A stretch of 44,135 nucleotides of DNA from a virus. Each line of letters begins with the position of its first letter. Positions within the stretch are counted from its first letter, which is position 1. Shown one piece after another: positions 3,957 to 39,462 of this stretch. The stretch covers positions 1 through 44,135 of IMG/VR virus record IMGVR_UViG_3300044574_000013; one strand, given 5' to 3'. The notes beneath the pieces were generated by a model, which was not told the origin of the DNA, searched no databases, and worked only from the letters and a program-made list of their open reading frames with translations. Both the position numbers and the translations under genes were made by a program.

Positions 3957-5164
3957 ACGATAGTCACCTGAATATTTGCAGTCGTCCATCGCGACAGCTG
4001 GTTGAATGCGATAGGAACCGATGATTCTGCGCCGTTGAGTGTCATGCTTTGCACAAAGCTGTTTCCGTACTCGCCGATCACCTTGTTTATCGGGGTGAAC
4101 ATGGTGCTGTACGGAACGCTTTCGCCGATATCGAAGCCTTCGATTTTGAATCCTACGCCTGCCGGAACAAGCTCGCCCGATACGAACTCAAGGAACGCTT
4201 CCTTGATCATGATATCTGCGTCTTCTGGAAGTGTTCCGTCATTCTTGACGGTTAACACCACGATCATATCGACGTAGCTTGGCGTGCTGTACTTAATGAT
4301 CTTCTTTTGGGCTGGATATTTTGGAGATTGCACCTCATATGTAACCGGTGTTCCGGGCTGGTATTGCGGCGCCGACGGCATAATCTTTAGATAGATCGCC
4401 ATTGCGATATCAGGAACTGCGCCGCCATCAACAATAACAGCCGTCGAGCGTGCGGGTAGGCCGTGCGGGTTCTCGTCAGATACTGCGGCGCTATTGGTCG
4501 AGTTAACGTAAACCTTGACCCGACGAACCCCTGCTACGGAGAAAATCTCGCCGTATAAGGAGTCGGTCTGATTGCTGCCGGGACGCCCAACGGCATAAGC
4601 CCGCATTACGCGCAGGGAGTCGTCAAGCTGTCGACTTGTGCCGATGGTGGCGGGTGCTGGGTTTGTCGCGCCAGTAAGGCCACCGGTAACGTCAACGATC
4701 TTTGTGATGGTTCCGATATCGGCCTGGGTTGGCCCGACTACAGTGCAGGTTGCTTGCACTGTCACGGAACCATCGACAATAACGGCGCGCTGATCAGTCA
4801 TCCATCGCGACCCAGTCGTCGACGAGTCTATTCGTGTTCCTTCTGGAACCGACGTATCGTTAACGCCAGTCAGCACAAGCTCAACGCTAGAACCACTACC
4901 CTTTGATCGCTTGGTTCCAGTTAGAGAGCACACCACATCAAGGTCGTATTTGGTCGCCTTGTTGGGGTCTTTGGAGTTGTACGCCTGCATTAGCGTTTCA
5001 TCGTTCAGCGAAAATATCTCAGCGTCATGTGCGATCTTTAGTCCGTCAGGCGTGGACGGATCAAGGTTCCACTGAGGATCTATTTCCAGATAAAGAGCGC
5101 GCTCTTCCTCAAACCACTGATTTTGGGTCTTTAGCTTGTACCCGGTGTCTGTTAGCTCACCCAT
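3953..5164 (-). CDS. Baseplate J-like protein
   Basis: 403 residues. N-terminal LDPSTPDGLKIAHDAEIFSL (residues 35-54) and a following VELVLTGVNDTSVPEGTRID stretch are typical of baseplate J (P2 gpJ / Mu gp47 / T4 gp6-like) proteins, which form the wedge ring that changes shape on contraction. The middle carries RAYAVGRPGSNQTDSLYGEI, another conserved J-family region. It starts inside the wedge gene upstream (8-base overlap) and its stop overlaps the tailspike start. Length is normal for the family. Confidence 0.85.
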   Translation of the reverse strand: MGELTDTGYKLKTQNQWFEEERALYLEIDPQWNLDPSTPDGLKIAHDAEIFSLNDETLMQAYNSKDPNKATKYDLDVVCSLTGTKRSKGSGSSVELVLTGVNDTSVPEGTRIDSSTTGSRWMTDQRAVIVDGSVTVQATCTVVGPTQADIGTITKIVDVTGGLTGATNPAPATIGTSRQLDDSLRVMRAYAVGRPGSNQTDSLYGEIFSVAGVRRVKVYVNSTNSAAVSDENPHGLPARSTAVIVDGGAVPDIAMAIYLKIMPSAPQYQPGTPVTYEVQSPKYPAQKKIIKYSTPSYVDMIVVLTVKNDGTLPEDADIMIKEAFLEFVSGELVPAGVGFKIEGFDIGESVPYSTMFTPINKVIGEYGNSFVQSMTLNGAESSVPIAFNQLSRWTTANIQVTIV

Positions 5165-22923: not shown

Positions 22924-22998
22924 TGGCTGGCAATGGAGGGCTCGAACCTCCGACTTCCCGGTTAACAGCCGGGCGTTCTACCACTGAACTAATCGCCA
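22924..22998 (-). tRNA. tRNA-Asn (GTT)
   Basis: Full cloverleaf on the minus strand: 7-bp acceptor (TGGCGAT / ATTGCCA with one G-T pair), D arm GTTCAGTGGTAGAAC, 5-bp anticodon stem CCCGG/CCGGG around CTGTTAA (anticodon GTT), T arm GGAGG-TTCGAGC-CCTCC, discriminator G as in bacterial tRNA-Asn, and an encoded CCA end (22926-22924). Confidence 0.95.
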
Positions 22999-23001
22999 AT
23001 T

Positions 23002-23077
23002 TGGTGCCGCCAAAAGGATTTGAACCCTTGACCCGCTGCTTACAAGGCAGCCGCTCTACCAGCTGAGCTATAACGGC
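23002..23077 (-). tRNA. tRNA-Thr (TGT)
   Basis: Cloverleaf on the minus strand: acceptor GCCGTTA / TGGCGGC (two G-T pairs), D arm GCTCAGCTGGTAGAGC, anticodon stem GCTGC/GCAGC around CTTGTAA (anticodon TGT), T arm AAGGG-TTCAAAT-CCTTT with one G-T pair, discriminator A and encoded CCA (23004-23002). It lies 3 bases upstream of tRNA-Asn and is probably co-transcribed with it. Confidence 0.95.
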
Positions 23078-26692: not shown

Positions 26693-26994
26693 TGGCCTGA
26701 TACCTCTGTAGGTTCAACAATGTCGATGTAGTAGAGAGCCGTGGTGCAGGTTGAGTTCTTGCGGCGTCTGATCGTAGATGTTTTGGTCTTTCCGTCCGTC
26801 ATAGCCCGGAGCTGTGCGCCATTGATATAGCCAGCCATCTTGCGCTCGTTCTTGAACTTTTCTTCGCGCTCCAGGTTAGCCAGGCGGTGCAGGACGTGCA
26901 TTATCTCGGATACGCTGACATAGGCTTTCTCGTCACCCCTGCTCTGCGCCATCGACATTTCAGCGCGCAGGTAGTTTAGGTCTGGCTTGCTCAT
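26689..26994 (-). CDS. Hypothetical protein
   Basis: 101 residues from ATG 26994, overlapping the upstream stop (ATGA). N-terminal half is helical (LNYLRAEMSMAQSRGDEKAY), the middle is Lys/Arg/Glu-rich, and TKTSTIRRRKNSTCTTALYY is basic. It could bind nucleic acid but shows no known domain. Confidence 0.58.
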   Translation of the reverse strand: MSKPDLNYLRAEMSMAQSRGDEKAYVSVSEIMHVLHRLANLEREEKFKNERKMAGYINGAQLRAMTDGKTKTSTIRRRKNSTCTTALYYIDIVEPTEVSGQ

Positions 26995-27317
26995 GACTGG
27001 ATTCCTGCTCGGGATTTGGCGCAGGCTTGCCAGATTTCCCATTCAGATTTGAAGTAATAAAGACCGCCATCATCTAGAACACCGCTAACAGAAGAGCATC
27101 TCCCCATATCGTGCATAGCATTCGCAAACAGCTCGCGCTCTTTGGCTTCGTCGTAGGCTGGAATTTCAACAGGTGGAGCGGCTGAAATCATATCGGCATA
27201 TGCTTCTTTTGCCGCCGAAATCTCGGGAGCGCCCTTGGTTACCTCTCCCCAAAAACCCAATATCATTTCTTCAGTAGGATCTATTGGGACAATTACAAAT
27301 CCGCTTGGAATATTCAT
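26991..27317 (-). CDS. Accessory phage protein behind structured RNA element 1
   Basis: 108 residues from ATG 27317. Opens IPSGFVIVPIDPTEEMILGF, a recurrent start in phage accessory proteins of Pseudomonas and enterobacterial phages, and ends with YYFKSEWEIWQACAKSRAG. Its leader (27318-27331) and the last part of RNA element 1 are nearly the same as the leader of the 39226 gene (TTTTTTGTGGGT then GAAAATGA). No clear ribosome site other than GGGT. Confidence 0.6.
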   Translation of the reverse strand: MNIPSGFVIVPIDPTEEMILGFWGEVTKGAPEISAAKEAYADMISAAPPVEIPAYDEAKERELFANAMHDMGRCSSVSGVLDDGGLYYFKSEWEIWQACAKSRAGIQS

Positions 27318-27331
27318 TTTCAATTACCCAC

Positions 27332-27445
27332 AAAAAAGGCTTCAAGAAGACCGTCGCATTTCTGCGTTGGCGGACGGGGATTGGTTCCCGCACGATCTTC
27401 TTGAAGCCTTACCAATTTAATCGCCCGCCAAGGCGCTATGTACGG
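27332..27445 (-). ncRNA. Structured RNA element 1 (double-pseudoknot type)
   Basis: Minus-strand element of about 114 bases. Helix C is a perfect 15-bp stem (27396-27410 with 27336-27350) followed by six T. Inside it lie a GGGA/TCCC hairpin and CGCA-GAAA-TGCG with a GNRA loop. Helix B pairs an upstream segment (27422-27431) with the internal segment 27367-27376 over 10 bp (one G-T). ATTGGT (27416-27411) can also pair with ACCAAT (27385-27380). Helix A (27438-27445) is weaker: CCGT/ACGG plus CAT/ATG. The arrangement matches elements 2 and 3. Could also act simply as an attenuator upstream of 27317. Confidence 0.65.
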
Positions 27446-27484: not shown

Positions 27485-28255
27485 TTATTCGTCCAGCTCA
27501 TCTTGTGAGGATATTGAATGCTGCTGCTGCCACTCTTGGAACTTGTCCGTTTCCAAGGGCTTTAAGTCTGTCCACCCGGTGGGCCACCCCATCAGCCACT
27601 CTACCCACTCCGGGTTCATGTGGCCATTTTCTCCTGAGTGCGCAATAGCCCATCCCAACTTGTTCGGCTTCGTTCGCCCGTCTCCGCTGCATTGAAGTTT
27701 TAAGTCGTTCGATGCCGCCATAGCATTTGGAGTAGGCCACAATCCAGCAGCGATCACGCTGATGGGGCGCTCCAGTGTCGGATGCTGAAACAATGCACCA
27801 CTGCGCGTCATACCCCATTTCGGCAAGATCACCGAGCACCACGGCAAGACCTCTTCCCACAAGCAAAGGTGAGTTTTCCACGAAGACGACTCGAGGTCGT
27901 ACTTCACCGATGATTTTCGCCATTTCCCCCCACAGCCCGGATCTTGCGCCAGCGATACCCGATCCGTTACCTGCTGCGGAAATGTCTTGGCACGGAAACC
28001 CTCCCGAAACCACGTCAACAATTCCTCGCCACGGTCTTCCGTCAAAACTGCACACGTCAGACCAAATTGGGAAAGGCGGGAGAATTCCATCGTTTTGTCG
28101 TTGCGCCAGAACTTGTGCGGCGTAGGCATCACGCTCAACGGCGCAGATTGTTCGCCACCCGAGCAGGTATCCTCCGAGGATTCCACCGCCGATTCCGGCG
28201 AATAGGGCAAGTTCTCGCAAACCTCCATCAGTGCCCTGCTTATCAGCCAGCTCAT
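27485..28255 (-). CDS. Second-frame gene fully overlapping the methyltransferase
   Basis: 256 residues from ATG 28255, four bases inside the methyltransferase start and sharing its ribosome site (GGAGGAATT). It is open for its whole length in another frame and has protein-like, Trp-rich blocks that I recognise from phage proteins annotated near C5 methyltransferases: FSRLSQFGLTCAVLTEDRGE (58-77), LESSSWKTHLCLWEEVLPW (121-139), SVILPKWGMTRSG, GLWPTPNA (171-178) and EWVEWLMGWPTGWTDLKPL (216-234). The last block is the frame-shifted reading of the methyltransferase motif IX/X region. Function unknown. A chance frame is the alternative. Confidence 0.6.
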   Translation of the reverse strand: MSWLISRALMEVCENLPYSPESAVESSEDTCSGGEQSAPLSVMPTPHKFWRNDKTMEFSRLSQFGLTCAVLTEDRGEELLTWFREGFRAKTFPQQVTDRVSLAQDPGCGGKWRKSSVKYDLESSSWKTHLCLWEEVLPWCSVILPKWGMTRSGALFQHPTLERPISVIAAGLWPTPNAMAASNDLKLQCSGDGRTKPNKLGWAIAHSGENGHMNPEWVEWLMGWPTGWTDLKPLETDKFQEWQQQHSISSQDELDE

Positions 28256-30230: not shown

Positions 30231-30845
30231 CTATCCGATGATCTTCATAGTCGACTCAACCAGCGCCAGAAACTCCTTTCGCCTATCCTGAAGGCGCTTA
30301 ATCTCGTCTTCCATGCTACTGCGGGTAACTCGGTAGACGATGAGTTGCCTATCCTCTGGGAAGTCAGAGCAATAACTCACAAAGTCTACCCACTGCCGGT
30401 CAGAACAATCTAGGTGCCCAGCCAGCTGCCAGCGATACGACGGATCGAATGACCCGCGCTGCAATGTTGCATAATGTGTAGAAGCGATAACAGACTTGAT
30501 TTCGATCAGACCATCATCTCCAACGCATCCGTCTGGGCTGTCGCCATACTCGCCGCAATCGAAGAACCCGCCATTAGTTACTGTCACGAAGTTCTCGTCT
30601 TCGTACATCATTCTTGCGATTGGCTCCTGCTCATGGCCGCGATCCATATCGTCATTTTTGAAGCTGTATTCAGCTTTCCTGCCGGTGATACGCTCCAGTG
30701 CTATCTGCAAGGCATATCGTTTGGCCGGATCTCCAAATGCCTTGCCGTCATTCGCCATGAAGCAGGCGAAGTTCGAAGCTGTGGCGCGACCGCAACGCAG
30801 CGCAGCCCAAGCCTCAGAGTTCTGCTCGACGTCATGCCACATCAT
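30231..30845 (-). CDS. YqaJ-like viral recombinase (exonuclease)
   Basis: 204 residues. PD-(D/E)XK nuclease layout: GHEQEPIARMMYEDENF (70-86), GDSPDG with Asp105, IEIKS with Glu115 and Lys117, and a downstream Gln (RWQLAGHLDCS). Lambda-exonuclease-like enzymes degrade one strand of duplex ends for annealing. Start ATG 30845 has GAGGAG upstream; a second ATG follows immediately. Coupled to the 31347 gene, which is its probable partner. Confidence 0.85.
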   Translation of the reverse strand: MMWHDVEQNSEAWAALRCGRATASNFACFMANDGKAFGDPAKRYALQIALERITGRKAEYSFKNDDMDRGHEQEPIARMMYEDENFVTVTNGGFFDCGEYGDSPDGCVGDDGLIEIKSVIASTHYATLQRGSFDPSYRWQLAGHLDCSDRQWVDFVSYCSDFPEDRQLIVYRVTRSSMEDEIKRLQDRRKEFLALVESTMKIIG

Positions 30846-31347
30846 TTGCGCACTCCTCGATCAGCAGGGATTCATGGTCTTTAGAAATACTTAGGCGCGC
30901 CTTTACAGCATCAAGGTTGCCGTCGCGCTTATAGGCTGCCTTGGCATTGCTCCAGGCTTTTGAATTGTCTGGCGTAAGATATGCGACTACAGGCGCCTTA
31001 GGTCTGATCCGCAAGCCTTCCATGACCTCGCGTCCAAACTTAACATTCGAATCAACGTAAATAGCGACCTTGACGCCCTGCCAATCCTCGATAAACGGCG
31101 AGTTGGTGAGCGACTTAAGTGTCTTGCTGTTGGTCACGTTTAGGATCATAGGCTTCAGTTTTTCGCCCGGCCGGATCTCGCGCTCTGAAAAATAAGCGGT
31201 ATTGAAAAGATCCTTGGTCTTCTTTGTCTTGTCCGACTCAAGAACGACTCGGGCAATGGTTAGGATGGTTGGGCCGACGATATCGGCGCTACTCAGATAC
31301 GGGCTGTTGAAAGCCTTTTTGAAATGGGTTTTTTGATCGTTGCTCAT
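30832..31347 (-). CDS. Recombination-associated phage protein (partner of YqaJ)
   Basis: 171 residues from ATG 31347; the frame extends further upstream into RNA element 2, which is not expected to be translated. Pattern: KKAFNSPYLSSADIVGPTIL, EIRPGEKLKPMILNVTNSKT, FIEDWQGVKVAIYVDSNVKF and EGLRIRPKAPVV. This pattern recurs in phage proteins encoded with recombination or replication genes, possibly a single-strand binding or annealing helper. It overlaps the exonuclease gene. The function is inferred from position. Confidence 0.62.
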   Translation of the reverse strand: MSNDQKTHFKKAFNSPYLSSADIVGPTILTIARVVLESDKTKKTKDLFNTAYFSEREIRPGEKLKPMILNVTNSKTLKSLTNSPFIEDWQGVKVAIYVDSNVKFGREVMEGLRIRPKAPVVAYLTPDNSKAWSNAKAAYKRDGNLDAVKARLSISKDHESLLIEECANDVA

Positions 31348-31361
31348 GACTTTTATCCAAT

Positions 31362-31506
31362 AAAAAAGCCCTTTGATTGTTCGCTGGTTAGACTCCGAAA
31401 TTGGCTTGGATCGACGGCAAGTCAACCAATCCCGGAACAGCGAACATCAAAAGGCTCTATTAGCCGTCGATCCTGATTTGTCTTCGAGGTCTAACTCTCT
31501 CCAACG
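31362..31506 (-). ncRNA. Structured RNA element 2 (double-pseudoknot type)
   Basis: Minus strand, expected start near 31506, end at the T-run 31367-31362. Helices: A GTTAGAC (31495-31489) with GTCTAAC (31393-31387); B 11 bp perfect (31473-31463 with 31418-31408); C about 19 bp with small bulges (31456-31438 with 31386-31367); D ATTGGTT (31430-31424) with AGCCAAT (31406-31400). B' lies in the loop of D, and A' directly abuts C', so B/D and A/C both cross. A TATAGT -10 box precedes it. Six T follow helix C, then the 31347 gene after a short leader. Confidence 0.72.
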
Positions 31507-31512
31507 GGACGA

Positions 31513-31541
31513 ACTATAAGCAATGCAGCTCGCCGCCACAA
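31513..31541 (-). promoter_or_regulatory. Promoter for RNA element 2
   Basis: Minus strand: TTGTGG (31541-31536), 17-base spacer, TATAGT (31518-31513). The expected start is about 7 bases downstream, just ahead of helix A. It lies immediately upstream of the element and overlaps no other gene end except the short membrane peptide terminus. Confidence 0.6.
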
Positions 31542-35465: not shown

Positions 35466-35969
35466 TTATTCGGAAGTGCTGCCAAGCCATCCGCCGTCGG
35501 CAATCATCTTGCGCAGTCGCGCTTTTTGGGCGTCCCATGCTGCGTCCCATGCTGCGTCCCATGCTGCGGCCCATGCTGCGGCCCCCGCTGCGGCCCGTGC
35601 TGCGTCCCATGCTGCGTCCCGTGCTGCGGCCCCTGCTGCGGCCCCTGCTGCGGCCCGTGCTGCGTCATCACACAAACCATTGGCGAACTGCTCGGCAACA
35701 TCCAGAGCATCAAGACTGCGCTGGTCTGTCATCAGATGCTGGACTTTGCGGGCAGCCCAAACCGCGAACAGACGAAAATCACGGTCATGACCCTTGAATG
35801 CCCGAGCACACCACAAAGCATCATCCAGGCCGTTGCTGTCGAGAATGGTCAGCAGCGAAAGAGGCTCGTCGTCAGTCTTGGTTTTGCCGAGCGTGCCCAG
35901 CAGTTTTTGCCAGCCATCGGAGCACGGGCTGCATTCGCGTATTTCGTTGAGGGTGGTGGTGAAGGTCAT
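35466..35969 (-). CDS. Protein with Ala-Ala-Trp-Asp repeat domain
   Basis: 167 residues, start ATG 35969 with AGGAG upstream. The first 100 residues are globular (CSDGWQKLLGTLGKTKTDDE, LTILDSNGLDDALWCARAF). Residues about 103-147 are four-residue repeats of the type AAWD / AARA / AAGA, encoded by imperfect 12-bp DNA repeats. Such repeat tails occur in several Pseudomonas phage proteins; the repeats may form a helical rod. The C-terminus (RLRKMIADGGWLG) is again normal. Function unknown. Confidence 0.65.
   Translation of the reverse strand: MTFTTTLNEIRECSPCSDGWQKLLGTLGKTKTDDEPLSLLTILDSNGLDDALWCARAFKGHDRDFRLFAVWAARKVQHLMTDQRSLDALDVAEQFANGLCDDAARAAAGAAAGAAARDAAWDAARAAAGAAAWAAAWDAAWDAAWDAQKARLRKMIADGGWLGSTSE
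35531..35668. repeat. 12-bp imperfect tandem repeat inside the Ala-repeat gene
   Basis: About eleven copies of a unit close to GCTGCGTCCCAT (plus strand), with variants GCTGCGGCCCAT, GCTGCGGCCCGT and GCTGCGGCCCCT. As 12 is a multiple of 3, copy number can change without breaking the frame, adding or removing four residues at a time. Confidence 0.9.
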
Positions 35970-38490: not shown

Positions 38491-38640
38491 ATGAACATGC
38501 GATCCCACATCCCGCGCCCATCCCCCTGGCTGGCGCAGAAAACAAACTGCGCAGAGTGCGGGCGCAAGCGTAGCTCGGGGAATCACGCGAAGTGCAGCAA
38601 GGCGCAGCAGGATCGGTTTGCGGCGGAGAACTCGAAATGA
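38491..38640 (+). CDS. Small zinc-finger protein, 49 residues
   Basis: ATG 38491 with AGGAG upstream; ends in an ATGA overlap with NinB. Carries NCAECGRKRSSGNHAKCSKA, a C-x2-C ... H-x3-C finger, with a Pro-rich start. Small zinc proteins of this kind commonly accompany Nin genes. Confidence 0.62.
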   Translation: MNMRSHIPRPSPWLAQKTNCAECGRKRSSGNHAKCSKAQQDRFAAENSK

Positions 38641-39035
38641 GCCTGCCATCGTTCCCGCTGCGCACGGAGCAGGATCGGTCGCGGGCAATCCAGATCCTGC
38701 AAAAAGTCGACCTGACCCAAGGCATCACATGGACGATGCGCGAGGAAGTCCGCAGTGACGCGCAGAACCGCAGGATGTGGGCAATGCTGCGCGACGTGGC
38801 CAAACAGGTCGTATGGCACGGAAAGAAACTGTCTGACGAGGACTGGAAGCACGTTTTTAGCGCTTCTGTGGAGCAACAAAGGGCAGTGCCAGGGTTAGAC
38901 GGTGGATTTGTCGTGCTTGGCGTCTCAACGCGCAAGAAGAGCAAGAAGTGGTTTAACGATATGTTTGAGGTGATGGAGGCTTTCGCGGCCGAGCATCAGG
39001 TTAAATTCCAGACGGCGGATCATTGGGGGATTTGA
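38637..39035 (+). CDS. ninB: NinB recombination protein
   Basis: 132 residues from ATG 38637. Carries the NinB pattern: WTMREEVRSDAQNRRMWAML, DVAKQVVWHGKKLSDEDWKH, GGFVVLGVSTRKKSKKWFND and a C-terminal EVMEAFAAEHQVKF. Lambda NinB (Orf) is a mediator that helps load recombinase/annealing proteins on DNA. Longer upstream starts would overlap the zinc-finger gene. Confidence 0.85.
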   Translation: MSLPSFPLRTEQDRSRAIQILQKVDLTQGITWTMREEVRSDAQNRRMWAMLRDVAKQVVWHGKKLSDEDWKHVFSASVEQQRAVPGLDGGFVVLGVSTRKKSKKWFNDMFEVMEAFAAEHQVKFQTADHWGI

Positions 39036-39044
39036 GAATAGCGC

Positions 39045-39072
39045 TTTACCGATGCGCGAGAATCGGTATACT
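39045..39072 (+). promoter_or_regulatory. Promoter for RNA element 3
   Basis: TTTACC (39045-39050), 16-base spacer, TATACT (39067-39072). CCGAT/ATCGG flank the spacer as a small inverted repeat. A start about 7 bases downstream falls just before helix A of the element, giving a transcript that begins with the RNA structure. Confidence 0.68.
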
Positions 39073-39078
39073 CAGCGA

Positions 39079-39211
39079 ACGGGTGTAGTAGCCCAGAGTT
39101 TATGGATCGAGGGTAGCAAAGGTTTAAGAGTGTGCCGTTCCTGTTGGGTTGAGTTCCCCCTCGATCCAGACCCAACAGGTCTACTACCGGCATACCCTTA
39201 AGCCTTTTTTT
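39079..39211 (+). ncRNA. Structured RNA element 3 (double-pseudoknot type)
   Basis: About 133 bases from the expected start to the 7-base T-run (39205-39211). Helices: A GTAGTAG (39085-39091) with CTACTAC (39181-39187); B GGATCGAGGG (39104-39113) with CCCTCGATCC (39158-39167); C 20 positions (39118-39137 with 39188-39207; one mismatch, two G-U); D CCTGTTGGGT (39140-39149) with ACCCAACAGG (39170-39179). B' is in the D loop; A' abuts C'. So the order is A-B-C-D-B'-D'-A'-C', two pseudoknots. Own promoter and terminator-like end suggest a free RNA. Confidence 0.75.
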
Positions 39212-39225
39212 GTGGGTGATCGAAA

Positions 39226-39462
39226 ATGAGCGAATGGATTAGCGTTGACGAGCAACTGCCTAAACTAGGCGAAATGGTCTTGGCTTCGGTAGCTGTAGGA
39301 TCGGTAATGGGCCGGAGCAGCATGGTTTTTATTTCGGGAATGATGCCTTCGGCGCATGGAGCAGAAAAAGAATGGCAGATGGAATCAATTCCAAAAATAT
39401 ACACGCCATTGCGAGTTACCCACTGGATGCCGCTCCCATCACCGCCGGAGGATTCAGAATGA
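39226..39462 (+). CDS. DUF551-like protein
   Basis: 78 residues. SEWISVDEQLPKLGEMVLAS at the start and RVTHWMPLPSPPEDS at the end are the two ends of the DUF551 domain, a small module common in phage early proteins. Placed right after RNA element 3; the leader (TTTTTGTGGGT, GAAAATGA) resembles that of the 27317 gene. Function unknown. Confidence 0.78.
   Translation: MSEWISVDEQLPKLGEMVLASVAVGSVMGRSSMVFISGMMPSAHGAEKEWQMESIPKIYTPLRVTHWMPLPSPPEDSE

Follow-up and report, generated by a model that had tools for sequence, protein, structure and literature searches.

Terminator-loop double pseudoknot RNAs, a new family of structured phage RNAs defined by sequence comparison

Between the NinB and DUF551 genes of a virus genome (IMG/VR record IMGVR_UViG_3300044574_000013, whose 44,135 nucleotides are here called the window) lie four long helices with interleaved strands, framed by a promoter and an intrinsic terminator. 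Is this locus, here called element 3, a product of chance, a leader that controls the gene behind it, or an RNA gene in its own right? Our comparison of related loci indicates that it belongs to a new RNA family, the terminator-loop double pseudoknot RNA, which was matched neither in Rfam nor in the open-access literature searched, and that it is probably transcribed as a self-contained unit about 130 nt long. The family shows strong covariation and is represented in cultivated Pseudomonas and Burkholderia phages.

Fold of element 3 and tests against chance

Read directly from the sequence, the helix strands of element 3 follow the order A-B-C-D-B'-D'-A'-C', with B' inside the loop of D and A' abutting C'. 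This order had been given correctly in a preliminary description of the locus, and the promoter and the terminator are also present as described there (Table 1). The four helices of that description stand, but it had missed a 5' hairpin, P0, whose loop contains the 5' strand of helix A. Helix C is paired at 19 of 20 positions, with a single A-C mismatch and G-U counted as a pair. The promoter is sigma70-like and is predicted to start transcription near 39079. At the other end the U-tract is followed by GTGGG, and the start codon lies 14 nt further on.

Table 1. Positions of the three elements and their neighbouring genes in the window
Feature	Positions	Strand	Basis
NinB gene, 5' of element 3	38592..39035	+	PF05772
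Element 3 promoter, TTTACC / TATACT, 16 nt spacer	39045-39050 / 39067-39072	+	sequence; family-wide promoter enrichment
Element 3 RNA, type I, about 133 nt	39079..39211	+	R1 117.6 bits (training member); pair counts; 0/2000 shuffles
Element 3 P0 hairpin, GGG/CCC	39081-39083/39092-39094	+	covarying stem in type I; also present in type II
Element 3 helix A, GTAGTAG/CTACTAC	39085-39091/39181-39187	+	type I: 100% paired, double changes at 3 pairs
Element 3 helix B (partner within D loop)	39103-39113/39158-39168	+	sequence; pair counts
Element 3 helix C (partner is terminator stem)	39118-39137/39188-39207	+	sequence; pair counts
Element 3 helix D	39140-39149/39170-39179	+	sequence; pair counts
Element 3 U-tract, 7 T	39205-39211	+	sequence
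DUF551 gene, 3' of element 3	39226..39462	+	PF04448
Element 1 promoter (31513..31541), TTGTGG / TATAGT, 17 nt spacer	31541-31536 / 31518-31513	-	sequence; promoter scoring
Element 1 RNA, type I	31362..31506	-	R1 132.3 bits (training member); scanner; shuffles
Element 1 P0	31499-31497/31488-31486	-	
Element 1 helix A	31495-31489/31393-31387	-	
Element 1 helix B	31473-31463/31418-31408	-	
Element 1 helix C	31457-31438/31386-31364	-	
Element 1 helix D	31436-31424/31406-31394	-	
Element 1 U-tract	31367-31362	-	
Gene downstream of element 1	30832..31347	-	without Pfam match
Element 2 RNA, type II	27332..27440	-	R2 105.6 bits (training member); pair counts; shuffles
Element 2 P0	27435-27432/27425-27422	-	
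Element 2 helix A (5' strand is P0 loop)	27431-27426/27372-27367	-	
Element 2 helix B	27416-27411/27385-27380	-	
Element 2 helix C	27410-27392/27354-27336	-	
Element 2 helix D	27390-27387/27378-27375	-	
Element 2 hairpin H (GAAA loop)	27366-27355	-	
Element 2 U-tract	27337-27332	-	
Gene downstream of element 2	26991..27317	-	without Pfam match

Elements 1 and 3 form one subtype (type I), and element 2 represents a second subtype (type II) of the same topology, which compared with element 3 has one additional hairpin (H) and very different helix lengths. All three have the architecture by which the family is defined here (P0/A, B, C, D with B' in its loop, and A' before C'), each as one unrepeated unit, and tandem RNA motif repeats were found in none of them. 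The earlier proposal had been to build one covariance model from the three elements, but they fall into two sequence subtypes, so that a single model does not recover all three. The leftward (-) and rightward (+) gene arms of the window diverge near 36.3 kb; the former contains elements 1 and 2 and the latter element 3, and all three are oriented along the direction of transcription.

The long pairings had been held not to be expected by chance, and this was borne out. A topology scanner found exactly 3 elements in the window and 0 in five block-shuffled windows. For each of elements 1, 2, and 3, helix C was then fixed and the remainder shuffled 2000 times, and 0 of the 2000 shuffled versions scored as high as the element itself. 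The MFE z-scores of the three window elements, with the knots ignored, were -4.9, -5.6, and -5.5. The scanner score is not proof by itself, as shuffled sequence reached up to 95 in a larger set, and a scanner variant that did not demand a U-tract was insufficiently selective in GC-rich DNA and was dropped. We take the structure as real because of the compensatory changes reported below, which are the proof.

At gathering thresholds, two tRNAs were the only matches of the window in Rfam 15, and relaxed E-values gave chance-level matches only, in agreement with the initial statement that element 3 could not be matched to a known riboswitch or ribozyme. Among the candidates, a hammerhead HH9 match scored 17.5 bits against a gathering threshold of 52 and was judged to be chance. 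BLAST returned no match for element 3 in phages or for a type I relative in plasmids. Model R1, run over 399 Pseudomonas genomes with few candidates scored per genome (weak evidence of absence), and strict patterns, run over 398 Pseudomonadaceae and 369 Gammaproteobacteria genomes, together gave one chance-like match only. A search of the open-access literature turned up no description of these RNAs, which may have been described elsewhere.

Covariation and replacement of sequence

Dozens of viral contigs carry relatives, and so do cultivated phages. The latter comprise the Burkholderia phages Bcep22, BcepIL02, BcepMigl, DC1, CSP3, and JC1, and Orisa01 of Pseudomonas syringae, a predicted virulent myovirus (PMC11256456) in whose genome the RNA is not annotated. 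A pattern scan of viral contigs contributed about 20 further type I members. Up to four copies occur per record, and one record carries two type I and two type II elements.

The pairings are kept while the paired bases change. In type I (13 sequences), 96.9% of pair cells were standard pairs, compared with 30-51% when the partner was slid; both sides had changed at 23 of 40 pairs, and no shuffle reached the covariation score. The type II set (15 sequences, found from element 2) was 95.6% paired, compared with 36-49% for the slid controls, and both sides had changed at 25 of 33 pairs. Such two-sided changes affect many pairs of helices P0, A, C, D, and H. All three pairs of the type I P0 stem change on both sides, with 82% of cells paired. 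In type II, P0 is present in every unique member with A in its loop, and its stem covaries (for example AATCCC/GGGATT, ATTGCC/GGCAAT, AACTCC/GGAGTT, CGCC/GGCG, and CCGG/CCGG). Helix A covaries too, because contigs L314 (TTGGAAA/TTTCCAA) and L330 (CTGCAA/TTGCAG) carry A pairs other than TTGGCG/CGCCAA. Helix B has one varying pair in type I, and in type II and JC1 its sequence is entirely different; the scan pattern fixed part of B, so that its conservation among type I members partly reflects how they were selected. The R2 model of type II, which contains no A or B pairs, matched the untrained members BcepIL02, DC1, and CSP3, and then L314, L330, and Bcep22. Since the 5' strand of A forms the P0 loop in both types, A/A' is predicted to be a hairpin loop that pairs with a distant strand, and the alignments give both types the common topology P0(A)-B-C-D(B')-D'-A'-C', with hairpin H between A' and C' in type II. 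The preliminary description had named differences without compensating base changes as the result that would speak against the structure; the opposite was found, with compensation pervasive in both subtypes.

The same shape also occurs with different sequence. In Lessievirus (Burkholderia phages), the element occupies a single locus, ahead of a winged-helix gene that these phages share. It is of type II in Bcep22 (presumed to be identical to L324), BcepIL02, BcepMigl, DC1, and CSP3, while JC1 carries at this site an unrelated sequence of the same topology (0 of 2000 shuffles), with helices A (TGCCAAACCG/CGGTTTGGCG), B (CCAGC/GCTGG, in the D loop), and D (CCGAG/CTCGG), an 18-bp helix C, and a U-tract. 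Such replacement of the whole body at one locus with the topology kept is an unusual natural experiment, and it suggests that selection sees shape, not sequence. In Pseudomonas-type phages, one promoter cassette precedes type I bodies in L058, L079, L095, and L070 and a type II-like body in L330, so the RNA bodies look interchangeable. The cassette borders coincide with mosaic breakpoints, as might be expected if the inverted repeats were fortuitous or were DNA-level features that serve as recombination junctions in mosaic genomes. The compensatory changes, which include G-U pairs, the polar U-tract, the promoter, and the failure of any shuffle to match the window elements argue against this explanation, to which we give the least weight of all.

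Some loci were less clear. Two Lessievirus-like contigs carry before the same winged-helix gene a possible family member without a U-tract (L325, 5830-5998; L326, 1525-1690), which is only suggestive of a terminator-less form, with 69 of 2000 shuffles reaching its score. Orimi01 (L333) was rejected because its helix B does not convince (314 of 2000 shuffles), although promoter, A, C, and D are kept, and Itty13 has an ordinary terminator and nothing more. Compared with Orisa01, Orimi01 has a gene inserted before the element promoter, at about 4000-4450 (-), and this gene is homologous to the gene after the element in L061.

Promoters, placement, and neighbouring genes

Upstream of the elements the median promoter score was 8.9 against a background of 3.2, a difference whose p-value is nominal, as the members are related. 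The score exceeded the 95th percentile of the background in 26 of 39 cases, and the sites place the start at the 5' edge of P0. Element 2, BcepMigl, DC1, and CSP3 have weak promoter scores; apart from these and the U-tract-less L325/L326 variant, the family combines a predicted start at P0 with a U-tract after C'. These family-wide starts support the original proposal of a free-standing structured RNA whose transcript is bounded by the structure itself.

Nearly all elements are followed on the same strand, at a distance of 9-40 nt, by a start codon, which at most loci comes 12-15 nt after the U-tract, and an SD-like GTGGG is shared at the boundary of element and gene. With the start codon so close, the downstream gene would be made only by read-through, and so some effect in cis seems unavoidable. 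The genes concerned belong to many families, including HNH, NinX, KilAC, ERF, DUF1376, and wHTH genes and genes without a match. Identical RNAs precede the DUF551 gene in L058 and, in L095, a gene that we read as GIY-YIG-like (the relative tested, L059, had no Pfam match). An attenuator for the DUF551 gene, one of the roles first suggested, is therefore unsupported. A convincing element was present at only 3 of 80 NinB-bearing viral loci, so that its occurrence is sporadic, and it was rarely present at loci with a DUF551 neighbour. In L065, L067, L074, L078, L080, and L087, type I elements are followed by related genes that are homing endonuclease-like in appearance; the one tested, from L065, had no Pfam match.

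Column scans for alternative conserved helices recovered the named helices only. There is thus no sign of a switch, and this result, together with the differing downstream genes, makes it unlikely that the element is a riboswitch for a ligand or an attenuator dedicated to one gene.

Proposed mode of action and the virus that carries the elements

We propose, with a probability of roughly 0.47, that the elements are phage noncoding RNA genes that act in trans and are recognised by shape. Host RNA polymerase would start at P0, and most transcripts would end at the U-tract. The sequence comparison shows P0 at the 5' end, its loop A pairing with A' immediately ahead of the terminator's 3' arm, segment B pairing into the loop of hairpin D, and an outer helix C of 18-20 bp that serves both as the base of the fold and, with the U-tract, as the intrinsic terminator. 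The resulting knotted RNA of about 105-135 nt should be stable, and read-through of the leaky terminator would express the next gene, which has no room for a promoter of its own. In the least certain step, the RNA would act in trans through its shape, most likely by occupying or blocking a host protein that binds folded RNA, and a ribonuclease or an RNA-sensing defence protein would be candidate targets.

Action in trans by shape is suggested because the architecture is kept while the sequence is replaced and few unpaired bases are available for an antisense seed. The compensation, the topology kept with unrelated sequence, the start at P0, the unrelated downstream genes, the multiple copies, the seemingly interchangeable bodies behind one promoter cassette, the untrained members recovered by R2, and the lack of any alternative conserved helix likewise favour a trans-acting RNA gene. 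Against it stand the placement just before a start codon, as for a cis leader, and the weakly supported variant without a U-tract, which is not expected of a released small RNA. In addition, no conserved unpaired bases that a specific protein partner could read were identified across the subtypes. If the RNA acts in trans, it would point to an RNA-binding target in the host; a cis leader would represent a new type of terminator architecture. That a widespread phage RNA family disables a host RNA-handling or RNA-sensing machine by its knotted shape with almost no sequence, in several sequence-unrelated copies per phage, is a bolder idea that we regard as doubtful.

The trans-acting RNA is favoured over its closest competitor, a portable cis attenuator, which is nevertheless a serious possibility. 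In such a unit, promoter, knotted leader, terminator, ribosome-binding site, and gene would follow one another, and the knots would pre-assemble the terminator stem and either set read-through or let a factor adjust it. The short distance from U-tract to start codon in most loci, the common GTGGG, the lack of space for a second promoter, and the possible terminator-less variant at the same place before the same gene would all be explained. However, no alternative conserved pairing was found, a stem of 18-20 bp would be hard to switch (helix C alone has -26 to -30 kcal/mol), the downstream genes are unrelated, loci with the neighbouring genes are mostly without the element, and the homologue of the gene that follows the element in L061 sits before it in Orimi01. 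Protection of mRNA ends, in which the 5' structure would shield the read-through mRNA from RNase E/RppH, or processing, in which the C-D duplex would be an RNase III site that separates transcripts, would fit P0 beginning at the predicted +1, the long near-perfect duplexes, and the intergenic position. A simple hairpin would suffice for either, however, and two strictly kept pseudoknots are left unexplained, so we consider this reading improbable.

A type III toxin-antitoxin or AbiF-like system, with an RNA antitoxin, a leaky terminator, and a toxin gene, is very improbable, although its gene layout is the same as in RCd22-abiF and ToxIN and several downstream genes are nuclease-like. In RCd22-abiF, a promoter, an RNA of about 130 nt, a terminator, a ribosome-binding site, and the gene follow one another (PMC12373285). 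RCd22 of AbiF (Rfam RF03085) and ToxI thus resemble the present elements in having their own promoter, a structured RNA of about 130 nt, and an intrinsic terminator before the ribosome-binding site and gene, and ToxI also contains pseudoknots. The elements differ from both in their fold, in the lack of tandem motif repeats, in the lack of an Rfam abiF or ToxI match, and in having no conserved downstream toxin, as the downstream gene varies and is often clearly no toxin (DUF551, NinX, ERF, KilAC, DUF1376, wHTH). The identical RNAs before different genes mostly refute this explanation.

Other known RNAs share single features with the elements. Riboswitch and attenuator leaders that end in an intrinsic terminator have the same order of promoter, folded leader, terminator, and gene; here, in contrast, the conserved helices are all compatible, the scans gave no alternative helix, no conserved ligand pocket is apparent, and the fold has the terminator stem as its base. 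Flavivirus exoribonuclease-resistant RNAs (xrRNA) keep a knotted topology while the sequence varies, and their function is mechanical. Their topology differs from that of the present elements, whose hosts are bacterial and for which nuclease blocking is only putative. The put RNAs of phage HK022 are structured RNAs in both early arms of the genome that act on the polymerase to prevent termination and have no terminator of their own at the end. By analogy, the window elements would resemble them in being present in both arms and differ from them in their terminator end. Some of the ornate RNAs GOLLD, ROOL, and OLE occur in phages. They are structured noncoding RNAs of obscure function, much larger than the elements and of other architecture (PMC12286853); the present elements had no Rfam match.

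The capsid region of the window is ~67% identical to myoviruses of Edwardsiella, Klebsiella, and Iodobacter, and adjacent tRNA-Asn and tRNA-Thr genes at 22924-23077 (-) share 92.5% identity with their counterparts in Pseudomonas phage HU1, with which little else matches. From these two likenesses, the virus is likely a Pseudomonas myovirus. A stretch at 27732-28190 (-) shares about 81-87% identity with genes for DNA cytosine methyltransferase in podophages of Salmonella and Klebsiella, which suggests cross-host transfer. Short tandem repeats of the GCTGCGTCCCAT / GCTGCGGCCC type at 35540-35670 lie in a leftward reading frame and encode an Ala/Trp-rich repeat protein.
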